In this document: in pieces, positions 3,060 to 53,591 of the stretch | Layout: every line of letters begins with the position of its first letter | Position numbering within the stretch: position 1 is the stretch's first letter | DNA from: Lachnospiraceae bacterium | GTDB taxonomy: Bacteria > Bacillota > Clostridia > Lachnospirales > Lachnospiraceae | Length of the DNA stretch: 56,449 nucleotides | Reading direction: 5' to 3' | Assembly (NCBI GenBank): GCA_016282915.1 | Contig: JAEELW010000012.1 | Span: 1-56,449 of the forward strand | Notes under the pieces: generated by a model | Told to the model about the DNA's origin: nothing | The model's database searches: none | Seen by the model: the letters and a program-made list of their open reading frames with translations, nothing else | Made by a program: the position numbers and the translations under genes

Positions 3060-4424
3060 ATGATCAATATACATGAGGTCGTAGAGACCAATCAGATGAT
3101 CGAAAAGGAAAATCTGGACGTGCGCACCATCACCATGGGCATCAGCCTTCTGGACTGTGTCGATGCGGATCTGTCGCGCTGCCGTGAAAAGATCTATGAG
3201 AGGATCACAACGCGGGCGAAGGATCTGGTCCATACGGGAAAGGAGATCGAAAAGAAATATGCGATCCCCATCGTGAACAAGCGCATCTCCGTGACGCCCA
3301 TCGCACTGGTGGGCGCAGCCTGCTGCCATACACCGGAGGAATTTGCATCGATCGCAAAGACGCTGGATGAGGCGGCCAAAGCCGTGGGCGTGAACTTCCT
3401 CGGCGGTTATTCCGCGCTGGTGAGCAAAGGCATGACGACGGCGGATGAGCTGCTGATCCGTTCCATACCGCAGGCACTTGCGGAAAGCGACCGCGTGTGC
3501 TCCTCGGTGAACCTTGCCAGCACCCGCACCGGGATCAATATGGACGCGGTGCGGCTCATGGGGCAGATGATACGCGAGACGGCGGAACGCACGGCGGATC
3601 ATGATTCCCTGGGCTGCGCAAAGCTTGTGGTATTCTGCAACGCGCCGGATGACAATCCCTTTATGGCAGGCGCCTTCCATGGAGTGACCGAGGCTGATGC
3701 CGTGATCAACGTGGGCGTCAGCGGTCCGGGCGTGGTCAAGACCGCGCTTGAGAGCATCCGGGGCGGAAGCTTTGAAGAACTGTGTGAAACGATCAAAAAG
3801 ACGGCGTTTAAGGTGAGCCGTGTGGGCCAGCTGGTGGCAAAAGAAGCATCGAGGATGCTTGATGTACCTTTCGGCATCATCGACCTGAGCCTGGCACCGA
3901 CACCGGCCATCGGCGATTCCGTTGCGGATATCTTAAAGGAGATCGGGCTGGAGCAGCCGGGGGCGCCGGGAACAACGGCGGCATTGGCGCTTTTGAACGA
4001 TCAGGTGAAAAAGGGCGGCGTGATGGCCAGCTCCTATGTGGGCGGCCTGAGCGGAGCCTTCATTCCCGTCAGCGAGGATCAGGGCATGATCGAAGCGGTG
4101 CGGGCCGGAGCCCTGAATCTTGAAAAACTGGAAGCCATGACCTGCGTTTGTTCTGTGGGTCTGGATATGATCGCGATCCCGGGCGATACTTCTGCGGCTA
4201 CGATCAGCGGTATCATCGCGGACGAGATGGCGCTCGGCATGGTAAATCAGAAGACAACGGCGGTAAGACTGATCCCCGCCATCGGAAAGAAACTCGGAGA
4301 TGTGCTGGAATTCGGCGGCCTGCTGGGATCCGCTCCGGTGATGCCGGTGAACGGCTTCTCCTGCGAGGCCTTTGTGGCACGTGAGGGACGTATCCCCGCA
4401 CCGATCCACAGCTTTAAGAATTAA
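3060..4424 (+). CDS. PFL family protein (UPF0210/DUF711)
   Basis: 454 residues, full length for the UPF0210 family. Structural genomics placed this family near the pyruvate-formate-lyase (PFL) fold, but it has no known glycyl radical chemistry or assigned reaction. Conserved blocks include EVVETNQMI near the N-terminus, [42 protein letters not shown] and the C-terminal GLLGSAPVM. It is paired with the ACT protein upstream. Its last 11 bases overlap the end of the convergent tmcAL gene on the other strand, so the two transcripts must be tail-to-tail antisense over at least that stretch; no intrinsic terminator is visible between them. Confidence 0.93.
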
Positions 4425-5538
4425 GGATCACGGGCGAACGTTTCCAGGCGGAGACCCGTCCGGATCCGTATGCAAGATAGGCGTACAGATCGGCGGCGCG
4501 CATTTCCGTATTGAAGCATTCCAGTGCGTCTGCCGCAAGTAGCATACGCGCATCCGCCGCCTTGGAGATGAGCGGACGGTCGGCATTCCCTTTGATCGCA
4601 TGCAGCAGCGGGGTAGCCGGAGCGCGGAAACCGAGCAGGGAAAGATACGGACAGTAGTCATATTCGCTGCAGAGCGTACGTATATTTTCCGAACGGAGCC
4701 CGAGCAGGATATGCAGAAGGGCGCGGCGGATACGGCTCAGACTGATATCGCGGCTTTTCAGGGCCATGGCAAAGCCTTCCGGATCGGAATAAAGGGAGAG
4801 CTTTGCGGCGATCTTGTCGGAAAGCGCGGGGGAAAGATCATAATAATCCCGGTATCCCGCCTCTTTCCGCATCAGCAGCGCATGATAGAGCATATCCGAG
4901 AGATCCGCGGTCTTTACAAAGCGGGCGCTCTTACGGTATCCGTTCAGTATGCCGGTCACATAGTCCGGCAGAAGATCCGCGCAGTCGTCACCCGCCAGAA
5001 GGCGTTTGCGGAAAGCCGAGGCTGAAGAAAGCGCACCGCTGTCGGTGTCACTGTCATGTGCTTCGCCGATGCGCGTTATGGTATGGGGAGTGAATCCCGC
5101 ATCCAGAGTTTCGGCCGCTTCCAGATAGGCAGCCCCCAGAAGATCGTTCGGACGGGGGCGTTTTTCATAGGGGAGCGTATTCTTTAGCAGAGGGATCAGC
5201 TCCTTCAGCGCCTCGAGGCTGCCGCTCTCGCTGGCAAAAAACAGATCCGTACAGACTGCGCTGTGTTTCAGCTGTGATACGGCCCCGCGGGCAAAATAAA
5301 CGGCGCTGCTTGCGGCAAAAGGCAGGGGGAGCAGGAGCACCGCATCCGCGCCGGCTTCAAGAGCCATCCTGCAGCGCGCATAGCGGTCGCACAGAGCGGG
5401 TTCGCCGCGCTGTACATAGTCCCCGCTCATCACGATGAGCAGATAGTCGGCCCCGCTGCGCGTACGGGCCTCTTTTAAAAGATATTCATGTCCTTTATGC
5501 AGCGGATTAAATTCCGCTATGATCCCACAGACTCTCAT
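4414..5538 (-). CDS. tmcAL: tRNA(Met) cytidine acetate ligase
   Basis: 374 residues on the minus strand, normally sized for TmcAL (YlbM), which makes N4-acetylcytidine at the wobble base of elongator tRNA-Met using acetate and ATP. The N-terminus is the canonical one: [15 protein letters not shown], with the HIGH-like nucleotidyltransferase motif H14-K-G-H17, followed by [13 protein letters not shown]. The start is fixed by family homology at the ATG whose first base is 5538. No Shine-Dalgarno sequence precedes it, and a TATAAT hexamer ends only 6 bases before the ATG (see the promoter entry), so the mRNA is predicted to be leaderless. Divergent from the protease-like gene at 5622 and convergent with the PFL gene. 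Confidence 0.92.
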
Positions 5539-5544
5539 GCGCGG

Positions 5545-5553
5545 ATTATACCA
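5545..5553 (-). promoter_or_regulatory. Extended -10 promoter of tmcAL, giving a leaderless transcript
   Basis: On the minus strand the sequence reads TGG-TATAAT-CCGCGC-ATG. A perfect -10 hexamer (5550 down to 5545) carries the extended TGn element. No good -35 is present at 17 bases (A/T-only stretch), as is usual for extended -10 promoters. Initiation normally falls 7 bases after the hexamer, which is the A of the tmcAL start codon. Confidence 0.65.
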
Positions 5554-5621
5554 TAATCAAAGAACGAAAAAAAGCCGATATATATTAGGGTCTGTATACG
5601 AAACGGGGAGGGAAGAGCTCT

Positions 5622-8600
5622 ATGGGTTTTGTGATAAAGATAAAACGTAAGCTTGCAGGGGTGATGATGGTTTCACTGCTGCTGGGAGATATGCCGCTCT
5701 TTGCGGCTGCGGAAGACGTGGGCGGTGATGCATTTCCGGAAGAAAGCATATCCGGAAATGCGGAGACTGTGCCGGAGGAAGAAGCCGCAGAAGACGGAAC
5801 GGAAGATCTGCTTCCGGAGGAAGAACCGTATGGAAATACGGATGAGCTTCCGGCGGAAGAAGCTGCGGAAGAGGAAACAGCGGAGCAGACGGAGGATCTT
5901 TCCTCTCTTCTGGATGGCCTGTCCTGCGGGGAAGATTATGCGGCCGGCGAGCTGGTGGCGCTTGTAAAGGATGCGCAGGAGGCCGGATACCTGGCCGCTT
6001 ATTTCGATGCGGAGATAAAGAAGCTGGAATACGGCGTGCTCGTGCTGGACTTAAAGGACGGCGATGCAGAGGAAGCGCTGAAGCGTGTCCCGGAGGGGTT
6101 CTGCGTCGGCCCGAACATGCGTTATGAGATCGGAAATGAAGACCGTGTTACGGCATCAGTCTCCGAAAAAGAGGCTTTGGAAGAGCTATTGCCCCGGGAA
6201 ACGGACTGGAGCAGCTGGTACGGCAGCGGAAGCGATGGGGACAGCCTGCTGCAGCCCTGGTCGGAGGATTACCAGTGGATGCACGATCCCGTCAATACCT
6301 ACGCGGCCTGGAGCGTGACAACGGGAAGCAGCGATCTGAATGTGGCGGTGCTTGGCAGCGGCGTGGATGCGTCGCAGCGGGATTTCGCCGATAAAAAAGG
6401 GAAAAATGTCAGGATCACGGCGGAAAGCGTACTCGAGTATCCGGAAGGGGATGCTGACGGGAGCGGAACGCATGCGGCGGGTATCATCGGTGCGGGTCTT
6501 CGGAATTCCCGGGCGGCGGCCGGGATCGCGCCGGAGGTCAGTATCCTGGGCATCAGGATACTGGATGAGGAAGGAGTCCTCACTTCGGCTTCCTTCTGTG
6601 CGGGGCTTTTATCGCTTTTGAACGAAGACGGCAGCCGCCGGGCGGATATCGCCGATCTTGCGGTATTCTGCGGTGACCGTTATGTACCGGAAGAAGCGGA
6701 GGCGGTTTCGCGTCTTCGGGCCGCAGGCGTAACGATGCTGGCCGGAGCCGGAGATGACGGCAGCAATGCCCTGAAATATCCTGCGGCTTACACGGGAGTG
6801 ATCTCGGTGGGAGCCCTGGACCGCGACCTGGAAAGAGCGGCTTTTTCCGATTACGGCAGCGGTGTTCTGATCTATGCGCCCGGCGTGGATATCAGCTCCA
6901 CCGAACCGAAGAACCGATATGCGAAACGTTCGTCGACCCATGCCGCTGCGGCAGTGGCTGCCGGTGTGGCGGCACTTTATATGAGTGCGGAAGGTTATTA
7001 TCCCCCGCTGGAGATGGAGCAGATCCTGGCCGGCTGCGCTTCGGATGGCTGCATGGATGCCGCGGAGATCTTTAAGAGCGACCGTACCGCGCCGGAACTC
7101 ACGATACGTGACGGCCTGGGACGCTATATCGCGAGTGTCTCCGCAGGCTCGGTACTGAAACCGGAGTTTACCTTCAGCGGTGACTGCACTGTCACGGCGG
7201 AAGCAAAGAACTATCGCGGGCACAGCGAAAACTGTACGCTGATCTACAGCGATAACGGAAAATATCCGGCGGTAAAGGAAGGGCTGATCGTAAACGGACA
7301 GCTCTATACGGAGCCGCTCCTTCTGTCTTCGCTCTGTGACGGAGAAAAGATACAGAAAGTACGTCTTTCGGTTGCAGCCGTAACGCCCATCGGTGTTCTG
7401 GGTGAAAGCAGCGGCATAGTCCTGAGCGTGGATCCGGGCCGGGTCAGCGAAGAAGCTTTCATACGGATCACGAACGCTCCCACACAGATACCGCTGGGAA
7501 GCAGCATAAGGCTCATGGCGGAAGCGGAAGGGACCATCGCTTCCGCACTCCGCTGGCGTGTAACCGATGAAGGCGGTCTTCTCACGGAACTGAATGCGGA
7601 GACCGGCGAGCTGTGTGTCCTGGGAGACCGGGACGGGATCGTGAGTGTTCAGTGCTATGCGGAATATCCGATCCCCGTGGAGTCGGAGATCGTCTCGATC
7701 GAAGTAAAACAGGGCAGGGTATGGGTTGACAGCATAGCGCTCAACAGCAGTGCGGGGACGATCGGCTATTCCGCGTCCGCAGAGACGCCGGACAGCTATG
7801 AACTGCGTGTTGTAGAACTGAAGGATCAGAGAGGGGCGAATGTACTGACGGATGAAAACGTTGCCCTGGTCTGGAGCAGCAGTAACGTGAATGTGGCTGT
7901 CGTGGAAGTGTCGGAGAACGGCAGAAAAGCGACGGTGATCCCGAAGGGCAAAGGCGACGCCGATATCATCTGCAGCGTTATGGACGGCTCGGGGAAGAGT
8001 GCCGTTTTTCGCTGTACGGTGGAACAGCTGGTTGAGGAGATACGCATTGCCGGACCGATCTGTCTTTTAGCAGGGAAAAGCTATAAGTACCGTGCGGATG
8101 CATTGCTTCCGGGCGATGTGAAGAATAAAAAGCTCCGCTGGGAGCTGAAGGATGCGCCGTCCTGGGCATCCATTGATGCAAAAAGCGGAAAGCTCCGCCT
8201 TTCGAAGGATGCTCCTCTGGGCGGACGGCTGCAGCTGCGTGCCACTTCCCTGGATAAAGGAGGGGCATCGGCCGAGCTTCAGCTTCGTGTGATCGGATAC
8301 AAAGCAGAGCGCATGGTCCTGACGACCGGACGAAACGACAGTTTCCTGAAGCTCTCTCTGGATAAAAAGAGCGGCAGTATCAATTCGTTTACACTGTATA
8401 CGAAAAGGGTAAGTATGGTCAAACCGGATACGACTTCCCTGATCGTGATGAGCCGTGTCTTTCTGAATGATGAACAGATCAATATGCCTCTCCGCTTTAA
8501 GAGCAGTAACGAGAAAGTCGTTACGGTCACACCGCTTGCGTCGGGGCAGGGCGTAACCATAAAGGCGGTAGGAAAAGGAAAAGCCTATGTGACCTGTACC

Positions 8601-9986
8601 GTAGCGGATGCGGGCGGCCTGAAACGAAAGATACGGGTCACTGTGGCGGAACCGGTAGAAAGTCTGCAGCTCAGCGGACAGTCTGTCATTCCTCTCGGAG
8701 GAAAGGCCGGGTATAAAGCTTCGGCCATACTGCCGAAGAATGCCTCGAAGCGTTCCGTCCGCTATGCGTTGGCCGGTGAGGATCTGAGCGGCGTGAGCAT
8801 TACGAAGAAGGGGCTGGTAAAGGTGGGTAAAAATGCGGTCGTGGGTGCACAGGTCACGGTAGTTGCCTATGCAAAGGATGAATGCGGCGCGATGGCACGA
8901 TGCAGCTTTATCATCAGCGAAAAAAAGACCGCCGAGATCAAGATCAGCAGCAATACCGTAGGGAATAATTATGATATCAGAAAAGACAAGAAAGGGAGCA
9001 TCTGCTCACTCCGTCTCTTTACGCAGAATGCCGTAAATTCCATCGGGGATGAGAGCACGATACGCCTGCTGAGCAATGCGCCGGGGGCACTTTCCTGGAG
9101 CTCGTCGGATCCGCAGATCGTTGAGGTGAAGCCGGCTGCTGACGGCAGATCCGCAACGCTCAGCGCACGGGGAGAAGGAGAAGCAGTGGTGAAGGTAAAG
9201 AGTATCGACGGGACACGGCACAGCGCGGAGATCGCCGTGAAGGTCGATATCCCGGCCTCCGGCTTAAGCCTTGTGGCAGAGGATGAACAGAGCGGGCCTT
9301 ATCATTATCTGGCTTACGGACAGAGCGTGCAGACGAGTGCCGTGATCGGCGACAGCTATGGCAGGGCAACGGACCGCGGCGTGAAATGGAGCTGTGAGAT
9401 CCTTGATGTGAGCCCGGAAAGAGATAAGGAAGGCGTGATCACGGACTGGAAGCTTTCCGTCAATCCGAAGAGTGAGGAACTGCTCGAGCTGCCGGATCTT
9501 TTCCGCTTTTCCGGCGGAAAGCTGACGATGCCGTCCATGGAAGCCCTTCAGGAACAGAAGGCCTGGTTTTCGGGGAGCGAGGTCAACGAATATATCTGTG
9601 GCATACGTGTCAGTGCCGTAACGCGGGACGGGAGCGGTGAAAAGGCGCAGATCGTTTACATCGCCGTACCGGCGGCGGAAAAGCTGTGGCTTTGCAATAC
9701 AGACGGCAGCCTTGCGGATACCGGAGCACTGACGGTGAAAGCGGGGGGAGAGAGCGTGGAGTATCTTCTGACGGAACAGACCGGCACAAGCCAGGGACGT
9801 ACCGTGCTGCTTGCCGGAGCCCGTGTGGAGAGCAGCGATCCTCATGTGCTGAGCGCATATTATGACAGGGAACGCAGCTGTCTGGTGGTCACGGGACACC
9901 AGCCCGGAAGGGAGCGTATCACTGTCACGGCCTGCGACGGGACCGGGATCAGAATGCAGCTGGAATTCACGGTGAATCCTATTTGA
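5622..9986 (+). CDS. Secreted subtilase-fold (S8) pseudoprotease with bacterial Ig-like domains
   Basis: 1454 residues. Signal peptide (basic start, hydrophobic core to about residue 28), then a long acidic linker rich in PEEE and AEE (to about 95), a pro-like region, a subtilase-like domain (about 215-460) and a beta-rich remainder with four group-2 Ig-like units near residues 750, 960, 1160 and 1404. The fold is recognisable from VAVLGSGVD, GSGTHAAGI, YPAAYTGVISVGALD and STHAAAAVAAGVAAL. Gapless comparison with the subtilisin signatures puts Gly245 at the catalytic Asp (DTG becomes GSG), Ser281 at the catalytic His (HGTH becomes SGTH), Asp378 at the oxyanion Asn (GN becomes GD) and His440 at the catalytic Ser (GTSMA becomes STHAA). 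It should therefore not be a protease; a binding or scaffold role is inferred. No LPXTG or SLH anchor is seen at the C-terminus. A GGGAGGG ribosome site precedes the ATG; no convincing promoter was found. Confidence 0.85.
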   Translation: MGFVIKIKRKLAGVMMVSLLLGDMPLFAAAEDVGGDAFPEESISGNAETVPEEEAAEDGTEDLLPEEEPYGNTDELPAEEAAEEETAEQTEDLSSLLDGLSCGEDYAAGELVALVKDAQEAGYLAAYFDAEIKKLEYGVLVLDLKDGDAEEALKRVPEGFCVGPNMRYEIGNEDRVTASVSEKEALEELLPRETDWSSWYGSGSDGDSLLQPWSEDYQWMHDPVNTYAAWSVTTGSSDLNVAVLGSGVDASQRDFADKKGKNVRITAESVLEYPEGDADGSGTHAAGIIGAGLRNSRAAAGIAPEVSILGIRILDEEGVLTSASFCAGLLSLLNEDGSRRADIADLAVFCGDRYVPEEAEAVSRLRAAGVTMLAGAGDDGSNALKYPAAYTGVISVGALDRDLERAAFSDYGSGVLIYAPGVDISSTEPKNRYAKRSSTHAAAAVAAGVAALYMSAEGYYPPLEMEQILAGCASDGCMDAAEIFKSDRTAPELTIRDGLGRYIASVSAGSVLKPEFTFSGDCTVTAEAKNYRGHSENCTLIYSDNGKYPAVKEGLIVNGQLYTEPLLLSSLCDGEKIQKVRLSVAAVTPIGVLGESSGIVLSVDPGRVSEEAFIRITNAPTQIPLGSSIRLMAEAEGTIASALRWRVTDEGGLLTELNAETGELCVLGDRDGIVSVQCYAEYPIPVESEIVSIEVKQGRVWVDSIALNSSAGTIGYSASAETPDSYELRVVELKDQRGANVLTDENVALVWSSSNVNVAVVEVSENGRKATVIPKGKGDADIICSVMDGSGKSAVFRCTVEQLVEEIRIAGPICLLAGKSYKYRADALLPGDVKNKKLRWELKDAPSWASIDAKSGKLRLSKDAPLGGRLQLRATSLDKGGASAELQLRVIGYKAERMVLTTGRNDSFLKLSLDKKSGSINSFTLYTKRVSMVKPDTTSLIVMSRVFLNDEQINMPLRFKSSNEKVVTVTPLASGQGVTIKAVGKGKAYVTCTVADAGGLKRKIRVTVAEPVESLQLSGQSVIPLGGKAGYKASAILPKNASKRSVRYALAGEDLSGVSITKKGLVKVGKNAVVGAQVTVVAYAKDECGAMARCSFIISEKKTAEIKISSNTVGNNYDIRKDKKGSICSLRLFTQNAVNSIGDESTIRLLSNAPGALSWSSSDPQIVEVKPAADGRSATLSARGEGEAVVKVKSIDGTRHSAEIAVKVDIPASGLSLVAEDEQSGPYHYLAYGQSVQTSAVIGDSYGRATDRGVKWSCEILDVSPERDKEGVITDWKLSVNPKSEELLELPDLFRFSGGKLTMPSMEALQEQKAWFSGSEVNEYICGIRVSAVTRDGSGEKAQIVYIAVPAAEKLWLCNTDGSLADTGALTVKAGGESVEYLLTEQTGTSQGRTVLLAGARVESSDPHVLSAYYDRERSCLVVTGHQPGRERITVTACDGTGIRMQLEFTVNPI

Positions 9987-10011
9987 CCCCTTCGGCCGGA
10001 TATGATAAAAT
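9983..10011 (+). promoter_or_regulatory. Promoter for the papain-like gene (TTGACC, 17 bp, TAAAAT)
   Basis: -35 TTGACC at 9983-9988 overlaps the stop codon of the preceding gene; -10 TAAAAT lies at 10006-10011 with an ideal 17-base spacer. The predicted start near 10018 leaves a leader of about 47 bases. The second protease-like gene can thus be transcribed independently of the first. Confidence 0.7.
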
Positions 10012-10064
10012 ATCTTTTGTTTTCTTATGTAAAACAACCTGCGTTTTGAGGAGAACGAAGGGAC

Positions 10065-13000
10065 ATGATGACCAAGAACAGGACGTTGCTCGTCCGTTTA
10101 CTTATAACTGCGCTTCTTGCAGGGGAAGTGCTGCCTGTTTCGGCACAGGATGTGCCGTATCCTGCGGAGGATACTCCCGTTTCTGCGGGGGATCTTTCCA
10201 TGTCCGGAAACGGCTCGGCTTCTTCCGATGATACCGTTTCGGATAATGATGATACTCCCTCGGAAAACAGTCTGTCCGGTCCTCTTTTTGTGCCGGATTA
10301 TATCCCGGATCTGCAGGAAACGGCGGTGCTCGGGAACGGTCTTTCTTTTATCGGGACCGTAAATGCCGTGCTGGATGACAATCCTTCGCCGGAAAGCGGA
10401 CTGAGCCTGATCAGTCCGGAAGGCGCGGTGGCGGAAGATCCGGCTTATCCCTGCGATCACGAAAATGACTGGCTGGCATATTTTAATGAAAAACTTCCGC
10501 CAACACGGGATCAGAAGGACTATGCTGCCGGCTGGGCATATTCGGCAGTTGCGCTGGCGGAATTTTACGCGGCCGGCCATGGCCTCGGAAACAAAGATAC
10601 GGATCTGAGTGAAGCTCATCTGGCCGGCTGGAGCTATACGGACGGCACGGCATCCTTTGCCGCCGGAGACAGCGGTGACCGTATCGAGGAAACGGAGCGG
10701 GAACGCATTCCCGATAACGGCGGTAATTATCTCTTTGCTTCACAGACCCTGTGGCAGCGCGGCACGGTATCGGAGAGTGTGCTGCCTTCATCGTCTTTTC
10801 CCTCTTTATCGCAGGACGGTATCCTGAATGCGGAGAATGAGTATTCGGATGGGCTGTATCTGAAGAATGCCTATCATATTTCACTGAAGGATAATCCCAT
10901 GCTGGTACGCGGTGCCATCATCGCGAACGGTGCCGTCGGCGCTGCCATGGCCGATGAACAGAGCTGTATGAATGTCAGCTGCAATGCCTTTTTCTGCGGA
11001 AACAGTGAACGGCCCGCAGATCATGCTGTGGTACTTGTGGGCTGGGATGATGATTATCCGAAGGAGAATTTTTCGCCCGACGGGGAGTTCGTGCCCGCAG
11101 AGAACGGTGCCTGGCTGGTCCGCAGCAGCGGGAGTGAAAACAGCTGTGAAGCATATTCTTCCTATTTCTGGCTTTCCTATGAGGACCGTTCCCTTTGCGG
11201 GGCGTGGACCTTTGACCTGAGCGGGGAATATAACGGATATAACAGATATTATTACGATTCCCAGATCCATGATGCGGGCTATTACGGAGACTGGACCGGA
11301 GTCTGCGGCTATGCCAATGTATTCACGGTGGGCGGCAGCGGAAATGCTGCCAGGGAACGTCTGGAAGCGGTCAGCTTTGAAGTCTCTCTCCTGAAGAACG
11401 GGGGAGCGCCTTATACCGTGAAGATCTATAAGGATCTGGAGGGGACCTCGCCCTTATCCGGTACCCTTGTGGAGGAAGCTACGACCCGGGGGCGGATCTC
11501 CTACACCGGCAGCTATACGGTGAAGCTGAAAAAAGCGGTGAACTTAAACCGGGGAAGCCGCTACAGTGTTGTGATCTTCTTTGACGAGGCCGGTTCCTCC
11601 GTTGCCCTGGAGCACCGTTTCATGCGCGGGGAAGAGCGCAGCGTCAATGTCGGTGTCATGCAGGGGCAGAGCTTTGTTTCGTCCGACCGGAACAATTTCA
11701 GCGATGTGAAGGGCGATGATGACGAATTCGGCAATCTGGTGATCCGGGCGATGACCAGGGATATGCCGGATATTCCCTATCCGGTCGGCATGACCGTGGA
11801 GCCTGCGAGCCTGGTGCTTACGGGAGAGGATCAGACGCTGACCGCCACATTCTGGGATGAGGACGGCGAGACCATACCGGAACTGAAGCCTTTGTGGCGC
11901 AGCAGTAATACGAGAGTCGTTACGGTAGATGCCAACGGAAAACTGAAGGCGGTCAAAAACGGAAAGGCTGTGGTGACGGCGTCTTATGAAGGCTTTGGGG
12001 CCAGCTGCGTGGTGACGGTAAAGATCCCCCGCAGCGGACAGACTGCCATGCCTACCTGTGATGTGGAAGACGGGAGCGTCATCGACTACAGCAGAAAGAT
12101 CGGTCTGAGCTGTATCACCGAAGATGCAAAGATCTACTATACCACCGACGGGACGACGCCCACCGTGGAAAGTACCTTATATGATGACGCGAAAAAGATC
12201 AGCGTGGATCCGGATCTTGTGGGCAGTGTCCTGGTCCTGAAGGCGGTGGCCCAGACCGAAGAAATGAGTCTGAGCGAGGTGCTGACCCTCAGATTTACCA
12301 TAACTACCATAGGCCGGATACGTATCAGTACCAGCGGCAACGAAGCAAAGATCAGCAGCACGCGCGAGGGCGATCTGACACTGTATGCACAGCTGTATAT
12401 CGGTGAGGATGAGCAGATGCCCATGGACGGGTATCACTGGAGTGTTGACGATGAGAAAGTGATCACACTGGGAGAAACGGCGGGCGAAAACGCTTCCGCG
12501 ATCCGCCTGAAGGGCCTGGCAAACGGCACGGCAAAGGTATGTGTCAGCGCAGACGATGCTCTGGGCGAACGGGTGAGCGCTTTTATCACCATCAGCGTGG
12601 AGATCCCGCAGACAGCAGCTCCGACCTGCGCGCCTCCCGGCGGGCTTACCGTGAAAGCGGAGCAGAAAATAAGCTTAAAGAGCCTTTCTTCCGGTGCAAA
12701 GATCTGGTACACCCTGGACGGGAGCCGTCCGGTACCCGGAGAAAGCTTTGAATATACGGCGCCGTTTACGATCGGGGAAGCATATGCGGGAAAGCAGCTC
12801 CTGATCCGCTGCATCGCCTGTAAGGAAGGGATACTTCCGAGCAGGATCGTGACTTTCTGCTTTTCCGTACTGCGCGGGGAGACCGGGGGGGTATCGCCCA
12901 TGGATCCGCTGCCGCAGGCACCGGAGCTGGAAGACAGTACCCTGTATCTCATCAAAGGACAGAAGCTTTCCGTTGATAATTCTTATTGCAGCTCGGATAA

Positions 13001-14111
13001 AAAGCTGGTCTCCGTGAAAAAGGGCGTGGCCAGCGTAAAAAACACCGGTATGGTCTGGCTGGGACCGGAGGAAAACTATGATGCGGATCCGGCTAAACGG
13101 GGGACCGGCTTTACCGTAGTCATCTGTAAGGCAAAACTCCTGGACCGGAGCCTTAAGCTTGTTGCGGGTGAAAGCGGCAGCATGCGGCTGGACCTGGAAG
13201 GTTATGAGGAACATTTTGACAATATCCTGTGGCTGAGCAGCAATGAAGAAGTGGCTGTCGTGGAGGATGGGCAGGTAAGGGCGCTTTCTGCAGGAAGCGC
13301 CGTCATCACCGCCTGGGTGAACGGCAGGGCGCTGAAAGGGAAAGTGGTCGTGAAAGATACGGAAAAGCTTTCACTTCCGGTCTATGGACTGAGCGCTGAA
13401 CTTGTGCTGAACCCGATGCAGAGCCTGCAGCTGAAATCGCGTGCCTTTGATTTCAAAAAGGCGCTCTGGCCGGAACTTCAGGAAGTATATAATAATGCCG
13501 GCCGGCTCATCGCCTATACGGACGATGTGGTCTATATCACCACCGGAGGAAAGCTCACGGCCATCGGTTCCGGGACTTCTTCGCTTAAAGCTGTGGATGC
13601 AAAGGATCCTTCCCGTGAATATACGCTTGATATCTGCGTTAAAGAGCCTGTGGAACGTACGATCCGGCTTCATCCCGGAGAGAGCAGGAAGCTGAGATTC
13701 TATAAAGTGAAGAGCGAAGAGCTGGTCTGGGATGTGCCTGAGAATGTGACGGTTGAAAGATCGAAGCTTAGCGTACAGGAGAGCGGCGAGTATGAGCTGC
13801 ATGCTCATTACCGGCCTTTTGGCCGCGGCGGTTTCGATTACAGCCTGCGTCTGCAGGTGAGCGAGCCGCAGCTGCAGACAGATGAAAAGCTCGTATTGTC
13901 CGGAAATAAATATGTTCTGAACCTGGGAAAGGGCGAGAACTATGAACTGCGCTGGAACGCTTTTGTTTATCAGAAGCCGCTCTGGAGCTCATCCTCACGG
14001 AAAGTCTTTGTCGATGAATACGGAAGGATAAGGGCGGAGCAGAACGGGAAAGCCGTATTGAAAACAAAGGTGCACGGGCGTACGGTGAAGATCACCGTAC
14101 GTGTAGAATAA
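10065..14111 (+). CDS. Secreted papain-like (C1) pseudopeptidase with lectin-like, Ig-like and chitobiase-type domains
   Basis: 1348 residues. Signal peptide (to about residue 28), an Asp/Ser-rich linker with SGN/SEN motifs, then a C1A-type domain (about 145-370). Its first signature reads PPTRDQKDYAAGWAYSA: the oxyanion Gln is kept, but Gly156 sits exactly where the nucleophile Cys belongs (Q+6, before Trp). The His motif DHAVVLVGWDDD is kept (His320). The Asn motif, normally KNSWG, reads RSSGS (Ser354). Catalysis by the papain mechanism is therefore ruled out unless another residue substitutes. A lectin-like domain common in clostridial C1 proteins follows (about 390-560), then Ig-like group-2 units and two chitobiase-C-terminal-type modules (YYTTDGTTPT, WYTLDGSRPV). 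It has its own promoter, lacks a recognisable wall anchor, and ends 48 bases before the M3 gene. Confidence 0.83.
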   Translation: MMTKNRTLLVRLLITALLAGEVLPVSAQDVPYPAEDTPVSAGDLSMSGNGSASSDDTVSDNDDTPSENSLSGPLFVPDYIPDLQETAVLGNGLSFIGTVNAVLDDNPSPESGLSLISPEGAVAEDPAYPCDHENDWLAYFNEKLPPTRDQKDYAAGWAYSAVALAEFYAAGHGLGNKDTDLSEAHLAGWSYTDGTASFAAGDSGDRIEETERERIPDNGGNYLFASQTLWQRGTVSESVLPSSSFPSLSQDGILNAENEYSDGLYLKNAYHISLKDNPMLVRGAIIANGAVGAAMADEQSCMNVSCNAFFCGNSERPADHAVVLVGWDDDYPKENFSPDGEFVPAENGAWLVRSSGSENSCEAYSSYFWLSYEDRSLCGAWTFDLSGEYNGYNRYYYDSQIHDAGYYGDWTGVCGYANVFTVGGSGNAARERLEAVSFEVSLLKNGGAPYTVKIYKDLEGTSPLSGTLVEEATTRGRISYTGSYTVKLKKAVNLNRGSRYSVVIFFDEAGSSVALEHRFMRGEERSVNVGVMQGQSFVSSDRNNFSDVKGDDDEFGNLVIRAMTRDMPDIPYPVGMTVEPASLVLTGEDQTLTATFWDEDGETIPELKPLWRSSNTRVVTVDANGKLKAVKNGKAVVTASYEGFGASCVVTVKIPRSGQTAMPTCDVEDGSVIDYSRKIGLSCITEDAKIYYTTDGTTPTVESTLYDDAKKISVDPDLVGSVLVLKAVAQTEEMSLSEVLTLRFTITTIGRIRISTSGNEAKISSTREGDLTLYAQLYIGEDEQMPMDGYHWSVDDEKVITLGETAGENASAIRLKGLANGTAKVCVSADDALGERVSAFITISVEIPQTAAPTCAPPGGLTVKAEQKISLKSLSSGAKIWYTLDGSRPVPGESFEYTAPFTIGEAYAGKQLLIRCIACKEGILPSRIVTFCFSVLRGETGGVSPMDPLPQAPELEDSTLYLIKGQKLSVDNSYCSSDKKLVSVKKGVASVKNTGMVWLGPEENYDADPAKRGTGFTVVICKAKLLDRSLKLVAGESGSMRLDLEGYEEHFDNILWLSSNEEVAVVEDGQVRALSAGSAVITAWVNGRALKGKVVVKDTEKLSLPVYGLSAELVLNPMQSLQLKSRAFDFKKALWPELQEVYNNAGRLIAYTDDVVYITTGGKLTAIGSGTSSLKAVDAKDPSREYTLDICVKEPVERTIRLHPGESRKLRFYKVKSEELVWDVPENVTVERSKLSVQESGEYELHAHYRPFGRGGFDYSLRLQVSEPQLQTDEKLVLSGNKYVLNLGKGENYELRWNAFVYQKPLWSSSSRKVFVDEYGRIRAEQNGKAVLKTKVHGRTVKITVRVE

Positions 14112-14159
14112 AGAAGCGGAATGTGTTTGGGATCATTCTGCGGAAAAAGGAAAAAAACG

Positions 14160-17100
14160 ATGAAAAGAAAAAAACATGTATTCAAAAAGGCGATCGCAAT
14201 GGGATTGCTGGTCTTTCTGCTGCCGGGACGCTATGTTTCGGCGGGGGATCATGACGGCGTACTCGTGGATCATGTGGATCATTCGGATAAGGATTTTTCC
14301 GAGTACCAGTATGAGCATATGGACGGCAAGGATTTTGATGCGATCATCGCCCCGCTGGACGGGATCGTGGATGATACGTCCAACGCCGACCAGGTGCTGG
14401 AGATCATCATCGCCATGGAGGATTACTGCAACAAGCTGAATGCCAACAGTACCATCGCGCATATCCATGGCGACCTTGTGGCCGATGATGCCTACTGGGA
14501 TGATGAACTGAAATACAGCTCCGAACTGTATACCGATGTGGCCGATAAGGTAATGCAGTGTTACCGGACCATAGCCACATCTGCCAACAGCGATGTGCTG
14601 CATGATCGTATCGATGATGATGACGACTGGCAGGATATCCTGGATTATCAGGATATGACGCAGGAGCAGAAGGATCTGAGGGCGAAGGAAACGGATCTGG
14701 AGCTGCAGTACGACATCATCTATAATAAGGAATTCAAGGCTTCCGTAGGCGGCAAGGATTATACGGAAGACGAGCTTTCGGATGCCTACGGTCAGGGTAC
14801 CATCACCAGAGATGAATATATGCAGGGATTGTCCGTGATCCTTCAGGACAGAAATATAGAGCTCGGCAATCTTTTTCTTGATATGGTGGATGTCCGCAGC
14901 AAACTTGCATTGAGCTACGGCTATTCCAATTATGCGGACTGGATGTATGAAGAGGGGTATGAGAGGGATTATAAATTCAAGGATATGGCAGACTACCGTC
15001 AGGGGGTCAAGGATCATCTCGTCCCGCTGCAGGATACGCTCATCATGCAGATGTTCGGATATAATTATTCGGATGTCCAGGCCATGAGTTCGGTCCCGAT
15101 GACACCGAGTGAGGGTAAGCGGCTTCTGCGTAAACACCTGCCGGAGATCTCGAACGATATGCTGGTCTCGCTGGATTATATGGAAGCGCACAGCCTCATT
15201 GATATGGAGCAGAGCAAAGACAAGGCTCCCGGGGCCTATACGACCTCCATCAGCGGCGAGTATAATGCACCTTTTCTGTATATCTGTGCGGACGGTACGA
15301 TCATGGATCTGCATACACTGGTACACGAATTCGGGCATTATAACCAGATGTATTACATGAGCGAGGACGCCTGGTATTACGGTTCCGGTAATCTGGATCT
15401 GGCGGAGATCCATTCCCAGGGGCTGGAGATGCTTTTCATGGATTATTCGCAGGATCTTTACGGCCAGTACGCGGATACCATGAATCTCTATTCTCTGTAT
15501 AATATGTGCTATTCAGCCATTGAGGGTGTAAAAGAGGATGATTTCCAGTACAGGGTCTACAGCAACGCCAGCGGTCTGACGCTGGATGATCTCAATCAGA
15601 TGTATTATGACTGTTGTGTGGAATATGGCGGGCAGTACGCAACGCTGCTCAGTAACAGCATGACGCTTTCGGGTGAAGGCTATCTGCCGCAGGGCGTCTG
15701 CCTGGACTGGGTGCAGATCCCCCATACCTTCCAGTCGCCGCTCTATTATATCAGTTATTCCACTTCGGTCGCTGCGGTATTTGAACTCTTTGACTGTATA
15801 TTAAACGACCGGGATGAAGGGATCGATATCTATCTGAAGCTTGTGAGTGAGGGAACGGAAGGAGAGTTCCAGGAAACTCTGGTAAATGCGGGGATGAACA
15901 ATCCCATCGCAAATCCCCGCTTTGAAGTGTATGCTTCCGATATCCTCTATTATGCGGGACTGGCGGATACACGTATCGTCGATGATTCCTGGAGAAACGA
16001 CGGTTCGGATCCCCAGGGCTCCGTGGATCCGGATACCGATCCGGATAAGGAAGTAAAGCCCGAGCCGCCGGAAGATCCGGATTACAGTTGGACGGATGAT
16101 GATATAGAGCTGGCTTCAGACGTGGATATGCCGGGCTGGACAAAGATCTGTCTGATCATCGTTGGCGTACTTGTGGCTTTGGGACTGGTCCTGCTTATTA
16201 TCATGATCGTAAAGCGCTCCTCGGCAAAGAAAAAGGGCTCGGCACCGCATACGGTGACCCGGAAGGGAAAGGGATCCGGCGGGATCAGTCTCTCAAATGC
16301 GATCCGTCCCGGTCCGCCCAGACCCGGAGTGCCGCTGAATATGCAGCCGGGGATGTACCGGCAGGGTATGCCTATGCCGCCGCAGTATATGCAGGGAGCT
16401 TATGCGGCAAATGCCACGCCGAATCCGTTCATGCCCGGAGGAACCGGTATGCAGGTGAATCCGTATATGCATAATGCTGCTGTTCTGCAGCAGCAGGCGG
16501 CATATATGCAGAACATGCAGATGAACGCCGGCCAGGCGATACCGAACATGCAGATGAACGCCGGCCAGGCGATGCCGAACATGCAGATGAATGCCGGCCA
16601 GGCAGTGCCGAATATGCAGATGAACGCCGCCCAGGCAACGCCGAACATGCAGATGAACGCCGCCCAGGCAGCCCCGAACATGCAGCTAAATGCCGGCCAG
16701 GCCGCGCCGAATATGCAGATGAACGCAGGCCAGGCAGCCCCGGATATGCAGGTAAATGCCGCACAGGCTGCGGCGGAGCTGCAGGAAAACGCAGCGCAGG
16801 CTGCAGCGGAGGTAAAGGAGAACGCCGCGCAGCAGTCCGTGGAAGTGCAGGCGAACGCCGCACAGCCGGCTGCGGATGTGCAGATGAACGCAGGTCAGGC
16901 CGCGCCGAACATGCAGATGAACGCCGCACAGGCAGCGCCGAATATGCAGGGCAGTCCGTATATGCAGGGAAATCTGAACATGCAGGGAAATCCGAACATG
17001 CAGGGCAGTCCGTATATGCAGAGAAATCCGAACATGCAGGGCAACCCGTATATGCAGGGAAATCCGTATATGCAGGGCAACCCGTATATGCAGGGAAATC

Positions 17101-17519
17101 CGTATATGCAGGGCAATCCGTACATGCAGGGCAATCCGTATATGCAGGGCAATCCGTATATGCAGGGCAACCCGGCTGCACAGTCCGGGCAGGAAGGACC
17201 GACAGGGCCGCTTTCAGCGGAAGCACCGCAGCCTCTCGGGCCGTCGCCTTCCATTTCGGAGGGAAGTGCTGACAGCGCTTCCGTGACGACACACACGGGA
17301 CCCTCCGATGCCGGAAGCCTCGGACCTGTCACGTATGATAAAGCTGCGGATCTTTCTCGGGAGGAACCGGGGGATCTGGGGCCTTCGATCCTTGAGCGTG
17401 AAGCACCGAAGGCGCTCGGACCCAGTGAGGCTGTACGGCCCCATACTGCTCCGAATCCCTTCCTTCAGAAGCTGGAAGAGATGAAAGAACAGGGAGATGA
17501 CGAAAGTGATGGCGTATAA
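14160..17519 (+). CDS. Membrane-anchored M3-family zinc metallopeptidase with a repetitive cytoplasmic tail
   Basis: 1119 residues from the ATG at 14160, chosen over the ATG at 14121 because it begins the KRKKHVFKKA signal peptide and follows a GGAAAAAGG stretch. The catalytic domain is oligoendopeptidase-like: zinc motif H389-EFG-H393, third ligand Glu416 in LAEIHSQGLE, and a late IPHTFQSPLYYISY segment matching the His/Tyr substrate-stabilising region of PepF-type enzymes, so activity is expected. A Pro/Asp-rich linker leads to one membrane helix (about 661-687) with a basic stop-transfer (VKRSSAKKK). The catalytic domain should thus face outside and about 430 residues lie inside. The tail is Met/Gln/Asn/Ala-rich: 13 eleven-residue units (785-930), 13 six-residue units (931-1008), then an acidic end with several LGP motifs. 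A tail of this kind is unusual for the family. Confidence 0.85.
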   Translation: MKRKKHVFKKAIAMGLLVFLLPGRYVSAGDHDGVLVDHVDHSDKDFSEYQYEHMDGKDFDAIIAPLDGIVDDTSNADQVLEIIIAMEDYCNKLNANSTIAHIHGDLVADDAYWDDELKYSSELYTDVADKVMQCYRTIATSANSDVLHDRIDDDDDWQDILDYQDMTQEQKDLRAKETDLELQYDIIYNKEFKASVGGKDYTEDELSDAYGQGTITRDEYMQGLSVILQDRNIELGNLFLDMVDVRSKLALSYGYSNYADWMYEEGYERDYKFKDMADYRQGVKDHLVPLQDTLIMQMFGYNYSDVQAMSSVPMTPSEGKRLLRKHLPEISNDMLVSLDYMEAHSLIDMEQSKDKAPGAYTTSISGEYNAPFLYICADGTIMDLHTLVHEFGHYNQMYYMSEDAWYYGSGNLDLAEIHSQGLEMLFMDYSQDLYGQYADTMNLYSLYNMCYSAIEGVKEDDFQYRVYSNASGLTLDDLNQMYYDCCVEYGGQYATLLSNSMTLSGEGYLPQGVCLDWVQIPHTFQSPLYYISYSTSVAAVFELFDCILNDRDEGIDIYLKLVSEGTEGEFQETLVNAGMNNPIANPRFEVYASDILYYAGLADTRIVDDSWRNDGSDPQGSVDPDTDPDKEVKPEPPEDPDYSWTDDDIELASDVDMPGWTKICLIIVGVLVALGLVLLIIMIVKRSSAKKKGSAPHTVTRKGKGSGGISLSNAIRPGPPRPGVPLNMQPGMYRQGMPMPPQYMQGAYAANATPNPFMPGGTGMQVNPYMHNAAVLQQQAAYMQNMQMNAGQAIPNMQMNAGQAMPNMQMNAGQAVPNMQMNAAQATPNMQMNAAQAAPNMQLNAGQAAPNMQMNAGQAAPDMQVNAAQAAAELQENAAQAAAEVKENAAQQSVEVQANAAQPAADVQMNAGQAAPNMQMNAAQAAPNMQGSPYMQGNLNMQGNPNMQGSPYMQRNPNMQGNPYMQGNPYMQGNPYMQGNPYMQGNPYMQGNPYMQGNPYMQGNPAAQSGQEGPTGPLSAEAPQPLGPSPSISEGSADSASVTTHTGPSDAGSLGPVTYDKAADLSREEPGDLGPSILEREAPKALGPSEAVRPHTAPNPFLQKLEEMKEQGDDESDGV
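16512..16949 (+). repeat. 33-bp in-frame tandem repeats (about 13 copies)
   Basis: Thirteen successive 33-base units plus 9 bases encode variants of N-M-Q-M-N-A-G-Q-A-x-P in the cytoplasmic tail of the M3 protein. Early and late copies are nearly identical in DNA, while middle copies (16750-16880) have drifted to AAELQENAAQ-type units. Unit length is a multiple of three, so slippage would change tail length without breaking the frame. Confidence 0.95.
16950..17183 (+). repeat. 18-bp in-frame tandem repeats (13 copies)
   Basis: Thirteen units of 18 bases encode GNPYMQ and variants (GSPYMQ, GNPNMQ, RNPNMQ, GNPAAQ), directly following the 33-bp array. Seven consecutive GNPYMQ copies are almost identical at DNA level, which points to recent expansion. 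Confidence 0.95.
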
Positions 17520-17621
17520 AGACTGCCCCGGAAGCAGTGAAGACACCGAAACTGCGAAATGACAGTCAGAGCCGGAGGATATGGTTTAAGCAGAAAAGAA
17601 AAAAACACAAGTGAGGAGAAT

Positions 17622-19553
17622 ATGGCAGAGGAAACAGTACAGGGACAACATTATGGCGCGGAAAACATCGTAGTGCTCGAGGGACTGGAGGCTGTGCGCG
17701 TTCGTCCCGGGATGTATATCGGCAGCGTATCAACCAAGGGCCTGAACCATCTGGTCTATGAGATCGTCGATAATTCGGTGGATGAACATCTGGCAGGACA
17801 ATGCGACCGTATCCGCGTGACTTTGGAGAAAGACGGCAGCGCTACGGTAGAGGATAACGGCCGCGGCATGCCGGTGGAGATGCATGCAAAAGGCGTGAGT
17901 GCCGAGCGTCTGGTATTTACCACGCTGCATGCCGGCGGTAAGTTTGACGACAGCGCCTACAAGACCAGCGGCGGTCTTCACGGTGTGGGCAGCTCGGTAG
18001 TAAATGCGCTTTCCAGCCACCTGAAGGTGACGATCAAGCGTAACGGGCATATTTACGAGGATGAATATGAACGCGGCGAGCCGGTCATAAAGCTGAAGGA
18101 CGGCCTTCTGCCCGAAAAAGGAAATACCAGAGAGACCGGGACCAAGGTGAATTTCACGCCGGATGATACGATCTTTGAAAAGACCCGGTTCAAGGCCGAG
18201 GATATCAAGTCGCGCCTGCATGAGACGGCGTATCTGAATCCGGCGCTCACGATCATCTTCAGGGATCTGCGCGGTGAGGAGCCGGAAGAAGAGACCTTCC
18301 ACGAGCCGGAAGGCATACGCGGCTTTGTGGCGGCGCTCAATAAGGGAAAAGAGCCGATCCATGATGTGGTCTACTTCAAGGGAGAGGCCGAGGATGTGGA
18401 AGTGGAAGCGGCTTTCCAGTATGTGAACGAGTTTCACGAGATCGTGCTGGGCTTCTGCAACAACATCTACAATGCCGAGGGCGGAACCCATATCACGGGC
18501 TTTAAGACGCAGTTTACGACCGTGATCAACAGCTATGCGAGACAGCTGGGCGTTCTGAAGGAGAAAGATACGAATTTTACCGGGCCCGATGTGCGTAACG
18601 GCATGACGGCGGTGATCTCGATCAAGCACAGGGATCCCCGTTTTGAAGGGCAGACCAAGACCAAGCTGGACAACCAGGATGCGGCCAGGGCCGTGGGCAA
18701 GGTCTGCGGAGACGAATGCGTCCATTATTTCGACCGTAACCTTGAGGTGCTGAAAGCCGTGATCGGCTGCGCCGAAAAGGCGGCGAAGATCCGGAAGACC
18801 GAGGAAAAAGCCAAGACCAACCTTCTGAGCAAGCAGAAGTATTCCTTTGATTCCAACGGAAAGCTAGCAAACTGCGGATCGCGCGATGCTTCCAAATGCG
18901 AGATCTTCATCGTTGAGGGTGATTCCGCCGGCGGCAGCGCCAAGACCGCGCGTAACCGAGAGTTCCAGGCGATCCTTCCGATCCGCGGCAAGACGCTGAA
19001 CGTGGAAAAGGCTTCGATCGACAAGATCCTGGCCAATGCCGAGATCAAGACCATGATCAACGCCTTCGGCTGCGGTTTTTCCGAGGGCTACGGCAACGAT
19101 TTCGATATCACGAAGCTCCGTTACGACAAGATCATCATCATGGCCGATGCGGATGTGGACGGCGCACATATCTGTACGCTGCTTTTAACGCTCTTTTACC
19201 GTTTCATGCCCGAACTGATCCAGGAAGGGCATGTCTATATCGCGATGCCTCCGCTGTACAAGGCGGTGCCTTCCCGCGGGAAAGAAGAGTATCTTTACGA
19301 CGATGCGGCACTGGCGAAATACCGCAAGACGCATAAGGGCTTTACGCTCCAGCGCTACAAGGGTCTGGGCGAGATGGATCCGGAGCAGCTCTGGGAGACC
19401 ACGCTGGATCCCGAGCGCAGGATGCTGAAGCGCGTGGATATCGAGGATCCCATCCTGGCCAGCGATACCACGGAACTGCTGATGGGAAGCGATGTGGCAC
19501 CCCGCCGGAGCTTTATCCATGAAAATGCAACGGAAGCCATGCTGGACTTCTGA
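17622..19553 (+). CDS. gyrB: Type IIA DNA topoisomerase subunit B (gyrase-like)
   Basis: 643 residues from the ATG at 17622, which has GAGGAG just upstream; an in-frame ATG at 17559 would add 21 atypical residues. The GHKL ATPase motifs are present (EIVDNSVDE, DNGRGMP, GGLHGVGSSVVNALS), then the QTKTKLDNQ loop, the TOPRIM motif IVEGDSAGGSAK, the metal-binding DADVDGAH and the C-terminal YKGLGEMD. QTKTKL is the GyrB form (ParE usually has QTKGKL), so GyrB is preferred; however, no A subunit is adjacent and KLDNQDA is divergent, so a second GyrB/ParE-type paralogue remains possible. Supercoils or decatenates DNA with its A partner. A long hairpin follows the gene. Confidence 0.9.
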   Translation: MAEETVQGQHYGAENIVVLEGLEAVRVRPGMYIGSVSTKGLNHLVYEIVDNSVDEHLAGQCDRIRVTLEKDGSATVEDNGRGMPVEMHAKGVSAERLVFTTLHAGGKFDDSAYKTSGGLHGVGSSVVNALSSHLKVTIKRNGHIYEDEYERGEPVIKLKDGLLPEKGNTRETGTKVNFTPDDTIFEKTRFKAEDIKSRLHETAYLNPALTIIFRDLRGEEPEEETFHEPEGIRGFVAALNKGKEPIHDVVYFKGEAEDVEVEAAFQYVNEFHEIVLGFCNNIYNAEGGTHITGFKTQFTTVINSYARQLGVLKEKDTNFTGPDVRNGMTAVISIKHRDPRFEGQTKTKLDNQDAARAVGKVCGDECVHYFDRNLEVLKAVIGCAEKAAKIRKTEEKAKTNLLSKQKYSFDSNGKLANCGSRDASKCEIFIVEGDSAGGSAKTARNREFQAILPIRGKTLNVEKASIDKILANAEIKTMINAFGCGFSEGYGNDFDITKLRYDKIIIMADADVDGAHICTLLLTLFYRFMPELIQEGHVYIAMPPLYKAVPSRGKEEYLYDDAALAKYRKTHKGFTLQRYKGLGEMDPEQLWETTLDPERRMLKRVDIEDPILASDTTELLMGSDVAPRRSFIHENATEAMLDF

Positions 19554-48610: not shown

Positions 48611-48639
48611 TTCACATAAGCGTGAGTTTGTGATAAAAT
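48611..48639 (+). promoter_or_regulatory. Promoter of adhesin 1 (TTCACA, 17 bp, TGa-TAAAAT)
   Basis: -35 TTCACA (48611-48616), 17-base spacer, -10 TAAAAT (48634-48639) with extended TG. Predicted start near 48646, leader about 64 bases. Both hexamers also recur at other promoters of the window (36817; 9983). Confidence 0.72.
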
Positions 48640-48709
48640 GTATTTTGGATTTTTTTCAAAATCGGGAAGGTCCCGGTTGGAGGAAAAGAATGCCCGGAAA
48701 GGAGAAGAA

Positions 48710-53495: not shown

Positions 53496-53515
53496 ACCTA
53501 CTTTTGGCGGTAGAC

Positions 53516-53534
53516 ATCAAAGCGCCGCTTTGAT
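53516..53534 (+). promoter_or_regulatory. Perfect inverted repeat in the adhesin 2 leader
   Basis: ATCAAAGCG / CGCTTTGAT with one central base (19 bases in all), 57 bases before the start codon. It could be an operator or a leader hairpin; no T-run follows. Confidence 0.5.
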
Positions 53535-53591
53535 AGACTGGACAGTGGATTTTCAGGTAATCTGAAAAAAATAGAAAAAGGAGAGAAAACG

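Follow-up and report, generated by a model that had tools for sequence, protein, structure and literature searches.

A pseudosubtilase gene beside a probable operon for a Cwp84-like protein and a membrane M3 peptidase in a Lachnospiraceae genome

Why do two unrelated protease folds, both short of key catalytic residues, stand side by side in front of an intact membrane metallopeptidase? The question is raised by a 56,449-nucleotide stretch of a Lachnospiraceae bacterium (assembly GCA_016282915.1, contig JAEELW010000012.1, positions 1 to 56,449), referred to here as the window, in which three large plus-strand genes lie in a row and encode an S8-fold (subtilisin-like) protein, a C1-fold (papain-like) protein and a membrane M3 peptidase, all in open reading frames (ORFs). 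An initial annotation proposed that the dead domains and the M3 enzyme are one system, in which the former capture or present substrates for the latter or inhibit partner proteases. Its reading of the proteins themselves was sound: in the window the S8 fold lacks Asp32, His64, Asn155 and Ser221, the C1 fold lacks its catalytic Cys, and the M3 protein is an intact membrane enzyme with an HEFGH site and a Glu ligand, a signal-like N-terminus and a hydrophobic segment. Comparison with relatives makes us lean towards another explanation, in which the locus is a pseudosubtilase gene beside a probable C1–M3 operon and the dead domains coincide through lineage history, not as a designed pair. The S8 and C1 deaths seem to have come one after the other in the lineage, not as a single coupled event. 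For this comparison 98 genomes were searched with the domain stretch of each protein, the C1 stretch being searched also in the 35 genomes of the window's genus, and the loci were fetched and mapped; genomes are cited by our own labels, G000 being that of the window.

The pseudosubtilase and its relatives

The window S8 protein gives a Pfam Peptidase_S8 match (E 1.9e-25), and its predicted fold (predicted local distance difference test, pLDDT, 82.3) matches pro-subtilisins; the subtilisin fold is present and the Asp–His–Ser triad absent, its places being taken by Gly, Ser and His. Alignment to solved subtilisins, together with a within-family alignment, locates Asp32 to Gly at codon 6354, His64 to Ser at 6462, the oxyanion Asn155 to Asp at 6753 and Ser221 to His at 6939. 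The residue numbers are those of subtilisin, placed on the window protein by alignment, and the catalytic His64 is the first His of HGTH, the second being subtilisin His67. A structural match to unautoprocessed Tk-subtilisin (2z2z) covers the prodomain as well, which presumably stays uncleaved.

The same losses run through a clade of eight proteins, made up of seven S8 proteins linked to C1 and M3 genes and one unlinked paralogue of the window genome (G000 C47). Asp32 is Gly in all seven copies readable at that position, His64 is Ser, Glu, Asp or Asn in seven of seven readable, and Asn155 is Asp in all eight; since it is common to the clade, the catalytic loss is probably old. A second dead pair, neighbouring in the tree (G013 C51 and G025 C66), has lost Asp, His and Asn and kept Ser. 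The genes of this pair (L160 5026-9192 in G013, L159 1471-5607 in G025) lie directly upstream of uvrA-like genes, uvrA being assigned by eye. Among the 13 other S8 rows of the genus 10 are intact at all four sites, two are dead and one is partial, and the 11 outside both the dead clade and the G013/G025 pair are intact wherever readable. Outside the genus all 29 scored loci are intact. A search of 397 genomes gave matches in 162 others of the family, and the 29 loci are the best of one genome each among these; further matches in those 29 genomes and all those in the other 133 stand outside the score, as do matches of about 300 residues in G005, G008, G012, G016 and G019 and one weak match in G030. 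The S8 tree omits the fragment G020_C35 and is rooted by midpoint only. As some genomes of the pseudosubtilase clade also hold intact paralogues, a built-in contrast is available.

An SLGG segment that is present in the three active S8 paralogues compared is absent from the eight dead S8s, which argues against the capture of peptides in the old S8 cleft. The full-length proteins of the clade keep open frames of 1440-1575 residues, and the window S8 domain shows 38-51% identity to its relatives against 32-36% in the stalk; within its own protein, each of the dead S8 and C1 domains ranks first or second in conservation. Because they are conserved and predicted to fold, both dead domains are probably non-catalytic binders.

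The C1–M3 pair and its linkage to the S8 gene

The full trio is linked in 7 of the 35 genus genomes (G000, G001, G020, G026, G029, G030 and G031), and C1 is linked to M3 in eight, G007 having the pair without an S8 gene, so that the conserved synteny for which the initial annotation had proposed to look does exist. The S8 domain is dead in every readable linked copy, whereas Cys, His and Asn are all present in six of the eight M3-adjacent C1 proteins, the dead ones being confined to the window and its sister G007. Both domains are dead in one of the seven trio loci, and in the other six the dead S8 stands beside a C1 with intact residues. The argument that two neighbours would hardly both lose catalysis by chance fails as it was put, and the dead S8 and dead C1 do not look like one matched system; the counter-case that the annotation itself had named, neighbours that are catalytically intact in most relatives, is found for C1 and not for S8.

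The C1 and M3 genes abut in all eight loci, with 3-15 bases from the C1 stop to the first M3 ATG in seven of them; the 48-base gap first reported for the window holds when counted to the signal-peptide ATG at 14160, and an earlier ATG lies only 9 bases past the C1 stop. Between S8 and C1, in contrast, four of the six direct gaps (G031, G001, G026 and G020) hold strong terminators, each a hairpin of -20.0 to -21.8 kcal/mol followed by a T run, and in G030 an antisense gene intervenes. A single S8–C1–M3 operon was set aside for most species on the strength of these terminators and the antisense gene. On this layout S8 would be its own transcription unit in four species, and C1 and M3 a putative operon. 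A promoter-like site in the window's S8–C1 gap, which could serve the C1–M3 pair, is the only plus-strand match in 4300-17800, where three sites were found in total against 8.4 expected in shuffles; a rule scan before C1, weak and run with no shuffle control, matched in five of the eight loci scanned (window, G001, G026, G029 and G020) and not in G031, G030 or G007. A system of the kind first proposed would fit the linkage of all three genes in seven genomes, the constraint on the dead domains and the abutting of C1 and M3 in eight loci. It fits poorly with the intact catalytic residues of C1 beside S8 in six of seven trio loci, with the terminators, with the S8-free locus of G007, with the 22 of 30 examined M3 loci that have neither gene beside them and with the missing SLGG segment, and we consider it unlikely.

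The C1 family profile matches Cwp84 (4ci7, E 9.9e-51), as does the predicted fold of the window protein (pLDDT 85.9), on which Pfam reported lectin-like and Ig/Fn3-type (immunoglobulin-like and fibronectin-type) domains and no Peptidase_C1. In papain numbering, placed by alignment, Gln19 and His159 are kept, Cys25 is Gly and Asn175 is Ser. The last of these was dropped as an inactivating change, as the profile alignment shows Ser (KSSW) at this place in Cwp84 too, and only the loss of Cys is decisive. Dead C1 domains are rare in the genus: Cys is kept in 32 of the 34 readable fetched homologues, a set to which seven weaker or duplicate matches (two on G018 C105, one on G030 C33 and one each in G003, G027, G028 and G034) do not belong. 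The two dead copies, both directly 5' of M3, are that of the window (Gly, with His kept) and G007 C46 (Ser, with His to Gln and Asn to Asp). They are sisters at 100/100, and at 100/99 with the catalytic motifs removed, which makes one change on the tree and, by parsimony, suggests a single loss in the ancestor of both. That an assembly error produced the Gly codon is hardly credible; the window genome is in 181 contigs, but several changes lie close together in the active site, the frame is open and the sister copy is dead by other residues.

Neutral decay, with the window C1 as a pseudogene in progress and the S8 as a leftover, would account for the lost catalytic residues and for a window C1 branch (0.62) that exceeds the branches of five active linked copies (0.13-0.49), but not that of the sixth, G029 (1.32). 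The sequences themselves speak against it. Both dead C1 genes have open frames of about 1350 residues, in keeping with the long frames of the dead-clade S8 genes, and the domains are conserved: of 83 conserved non-catalytic columns the window C1 keeps 94% and the G007 copy 84%, where 30 active C1 proteins keep 82-100% of leave-one-out columns, and the window C1 domain is 39-46% identical to its relatives against 19-38% in the stalk. The ratio of C1 to lectin-like domain identity is 0.78-0.93 for the dead copies and 0.82-0.93 for the active ones (G029 excluded), with no clear relaxation, and fourfold sites are near random where protein identity is 42-45%. We regard decay as very improbable. The fragment G026_C8_2 was dropped from the trees and the conserved-column analysis, G022_C105 from the motif-free tree and that analysis, and G026_C8_1452 from that analysis; the last two have Cys and His. 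As one and the same locus carries an intact Cwp84-like protein in some genomes and a dead one in others, and the S8 clade has its own intact paralogues, the role of a catalysis-free protease fold on the bacterial surface becomes directly askable.

Intact C1/lectin-like paralogues are also found elsewhere. On G000 C109 and C3 (L014 and L015) they adjoin large Ig-stalk proteins, with a Transglut_core match in L015 and a transglutaminase-like appearance by eye in L014, a repeated pairing of surface enzymes in the window genome. In G013 (L118 4151-14034) and G025 (L119), one cluster away from M3 holds surface proteins of the S8 and C1 kinds whose catalytic residues are intact, separated by two smaller proteins that look secreted; it is an intact counterpart to the S8–C1 neighbourhood.

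The M3 protein gives an M3_not_pepF match (E 6.3e-52) below the curated cut-off and a profile match to PDB 2h1j (E 2e-49), and HE[FY]GH is present in all 17 long M3 proteins scored. From its signal-like N-terminus, read from ATG 14160, and its hydrophobic stretch, an outward-facing membrane peptidase is predicted. A strong M3 match was found in 34 of the 35 genus genomes, the exception being G009 (72% complete), and among the 98 genomes strong whole-domain matches (best at least 450 bits) are restricted to the window's genus. Of 30 M3 loci examined 22 have no adjoining S8 or C1, and in 17 of these 22 C1-free loci a TmcAL-like, DUF711 or plsX gene lies in the short flank, so that M3 looks like an old resident to which S8 and C1 were added. 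Past the transmembrane segment the M3 tail is highly variable, with Q/P-rich ends in some copies not linked to C1, a weak ribosomal L7/L12 C-terminal-like end below the Pfam cut-off in G022 and G018, and a zinc-ribbon-like end, by eye, in G017.

Lineage history weighed, and the layout of the locus

Several observations count against lineage history as the whole explanation. The persistence of the S8 linkage to C1–M3 over seven genomes allows a functional tie, and so may an NP[FY]L-type motif at the M3 tail, which occurs in all eight C1-linked M3 proteins and in none of the other 22 M3 loci examined (tails were read in 30 of 34 M3-positive genomes; the C1 neighbour of G029 is visible in the locus map, outside the short flank used for this survey). 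The eight group together on the M3 tree (93/97), built from 17 of 34 long M3s, and shared descent explains the motif too. Yet a gyrB-type tree of 30 of the 35 genomes, unlike the M3 tree, places G013 and G025 inside the same ten-species clade (90/88), and these two lack the motif, which might also point to a tie; a loss of the linked genes in them is possible. Of the eight linked C1 copies, that of G029 does not group with the other seven, so it may be a replacement. The different residues of the two dead C1s leave room for two independent losses, and their fourfold-site identity of 0.38, against 0.26 at random (standard deviation 0.05), is not fully saturated. The pseudosubtilase clade keeps Ser221 in four of eight copies, and the G020 copy, truncated by a contig end, is readable at Asn155 and Ser221 only, its dead status being taken from the clade. 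Lastly, the S8–C1 gap holds only a -3.6 hairpin in the window and none in G029.

The tail motif also invites a bolder view, in which C1 and M3 together work as a sensor-protease that spans the membrane. Whether catalytically alive or dead, the C1/lectin-like protein would dock an extracellular ligand onto M3, whose transmembrane segment would pass its state to the cytosolic tail ending in the motif, the pseudosubtilase acting as a CspC-like receptor for the same switch. We think this quite improbable. Possible, if doubtful, is an expanded repertoire of Ig-stalk surface proteins in which protease folds have been reused to adhere to fibre, mucin or other cells and the position beside M3 is historical. 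The window C1 protein has 48 matches within its own genome, mostly to its Ig-like C-terminal region, and the unlinked dead S8 at C47 and the second dead pair fit such a repertoire, as does the origin of M3 relatives: these lie on nine named contigs, all from Lachnospiraceae, four of which come from sheep or goat rumen or omasum. A repertoire of this kind leaves unexplained the S8–C1–M3 order over seven genomes and the restriction of the tail motif to exactly the C1-linked loci.

On the lineage-history reading, the locus would consist of two adjacent surface-protein units beside a genus-core gene. The first unit would be a secreted pseudosubtilase, kept as a prodomain-plus-subtilase module of predicted fold on an Ig-like stalk. 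The second would be the putative operon of the Cwp84-like C1/lectin-like protein and the membrane M3 oligoendopeptidase. To judge from the families, the C1 enzyme of most species probably acts on surface proteins or on captured ones, and M3 would trim the peptides set free, at the membrane. In the lineage of the window the C1 protein has lost its nucleophile without losing its conservation, and probably serves, by way of the lectin-like domain and the cleft, as a second module for binding; of the three proteins only M3 would then remain an active peptidase. The window's genus is taken to be rumen-associated, and binding of the modules to feed, mucin or host material, if it occurs, would be relevant to rumen colonisation.

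The row of three genes (Table 1) is flanked by the DUF711/HIGH_NTase1 pair on one side and a gyrB-type gene on the other. The HIGH_NTase1 gene, presumably TmcAL-like, lies just 5' of M3 in 12 of the 22 M3 loci without C1. Near the window end, large secreted-looking proteins are also encoded at 48638-52549 and 53514-56447; the latter has a Cthe_2159 carbohydrate-binding domain and runs past the end.

Table 1. Features of the locus, in window coordinates
Feature	Position	Strand	Remarks
DUF711 protein, upstream neighbour	3060..4424	+	Pfam DUF711, E 6e-195; several relatives also have DUF711 near the locus
HIGH_NTase1 gene	4414..5538	-	Pfam PF05636, E 8.9e-93
Pseudosubtilase surface protein, 1454 residues	5622..9986	+	Signal peptide, acidic linker, prodomain, dead S8 domain, Big_2-type stalk
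S8 prodomain, predicted folded	5898..6131	+	Model residues 13-90, block pLDDT 80-96
Subtilase-fold domain	6207..7079	+	Asp32Gly, His64Ser, Asn155Asp, Ser221His; fold match and alignments
Promoter-like site TTGACC-17-TAAAAT, candidate C1–M3 promoter	9983..10011	+	S8–C1 gap; consensus match only
Cwp84-like C1/lectin-like surface protein, 1348 residues	10065..14111	+	Catalytic Cys lost; Ig-like stalk
C1 (papain-fold) domain, approximate	10440..11219	+	Cys to Gly at 10530, His kept at 11022, Asn175 to Ser at 11124
Lectin-like domain	11280..11756	+	Pfam PF18560, E 3.2e-20
Membrane-anchored M3 oligoendopeptidase	14160..17519	+	ORF listed from 14121, 1132 residues
HEFGH zinc site	15324..15338	+	Third ligand Glu at 15405
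Transmembrane segment, approximate	16140..16208	+	Hydrophobic stretch scan
C-terminal tail motif APNPFLQKLEEM	17448..17483	+	Type common to the eight C1-linked M3 proteins

Comparison with known systems

In the open-access literature searched by listings, no description of the pseudosubtilase clade or of the S8–C1–M3 gene set was found. The nearest parallel to the S8 protein is given by Clostridioides difficile CspC and CspA, which are described as subtilisin-like pseudoproteases with non-catalytic signalling roles beside the catalytic CspB, CspC keeping an uncleaved prodomain (PMC6636752; PMC12880746). The first of these papers describes Csps as acting in spores and as having about 130 residues of jelly roll inserted into the subtilase domain; as of 2019, it credits the Csps of Lachnospiraceae with intact triads (PMC6636752). 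The window S8 protein resembles CspC and CspA in being a subtilisin-fold pseudoprotease. It differs in its signal peptide and long Ig stalk. Its subtilase part spans 291 model residues (116-406), where plain subtilisins have 269-279, which leaves no room for such a jelly roll. The NCBIfam CspBA match is far below cut-off (22.6 of 1250 bits), and the window S8 clade is not Csp.

The M3 protein is like the M3B oligoendopeptidases (PDB 2h1j and 3ahm) in its HExxH and Glu and in a whole-domain profile match, and unlike them in its signal peptide, transmembrane segment and variable tail. Dead C1-type proteases are known from the scabies mite, whose SMIPP-C proteins are reported to form a catalytically dead, multicopy cysteine protease family (PMC5956821); dead C1 domains here are confined to 2 of 34 readable genus homologues. 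For Cwp84 of C. difficile (4ci7, 4d59), a secreted surface protein, a papain-fold domain and, after it, a lectin-like domain are reported (PMC4089489). The window C1 protein shares this papain fold and lectin-like domain, with Cwp84 as its best PDB match by both profile and fold, and departs from it in having lost the catalytic Cys, with His kept, and in its Ig-like repeats. Cwp84 carries CWB2 cell-wall repeats, and none occurs among the Pfam matches of the window C1 at E up to 0.001. Judged by its residues, the window protein is a relative of Cwp84 by architecture and not an enzymatic member of that family.

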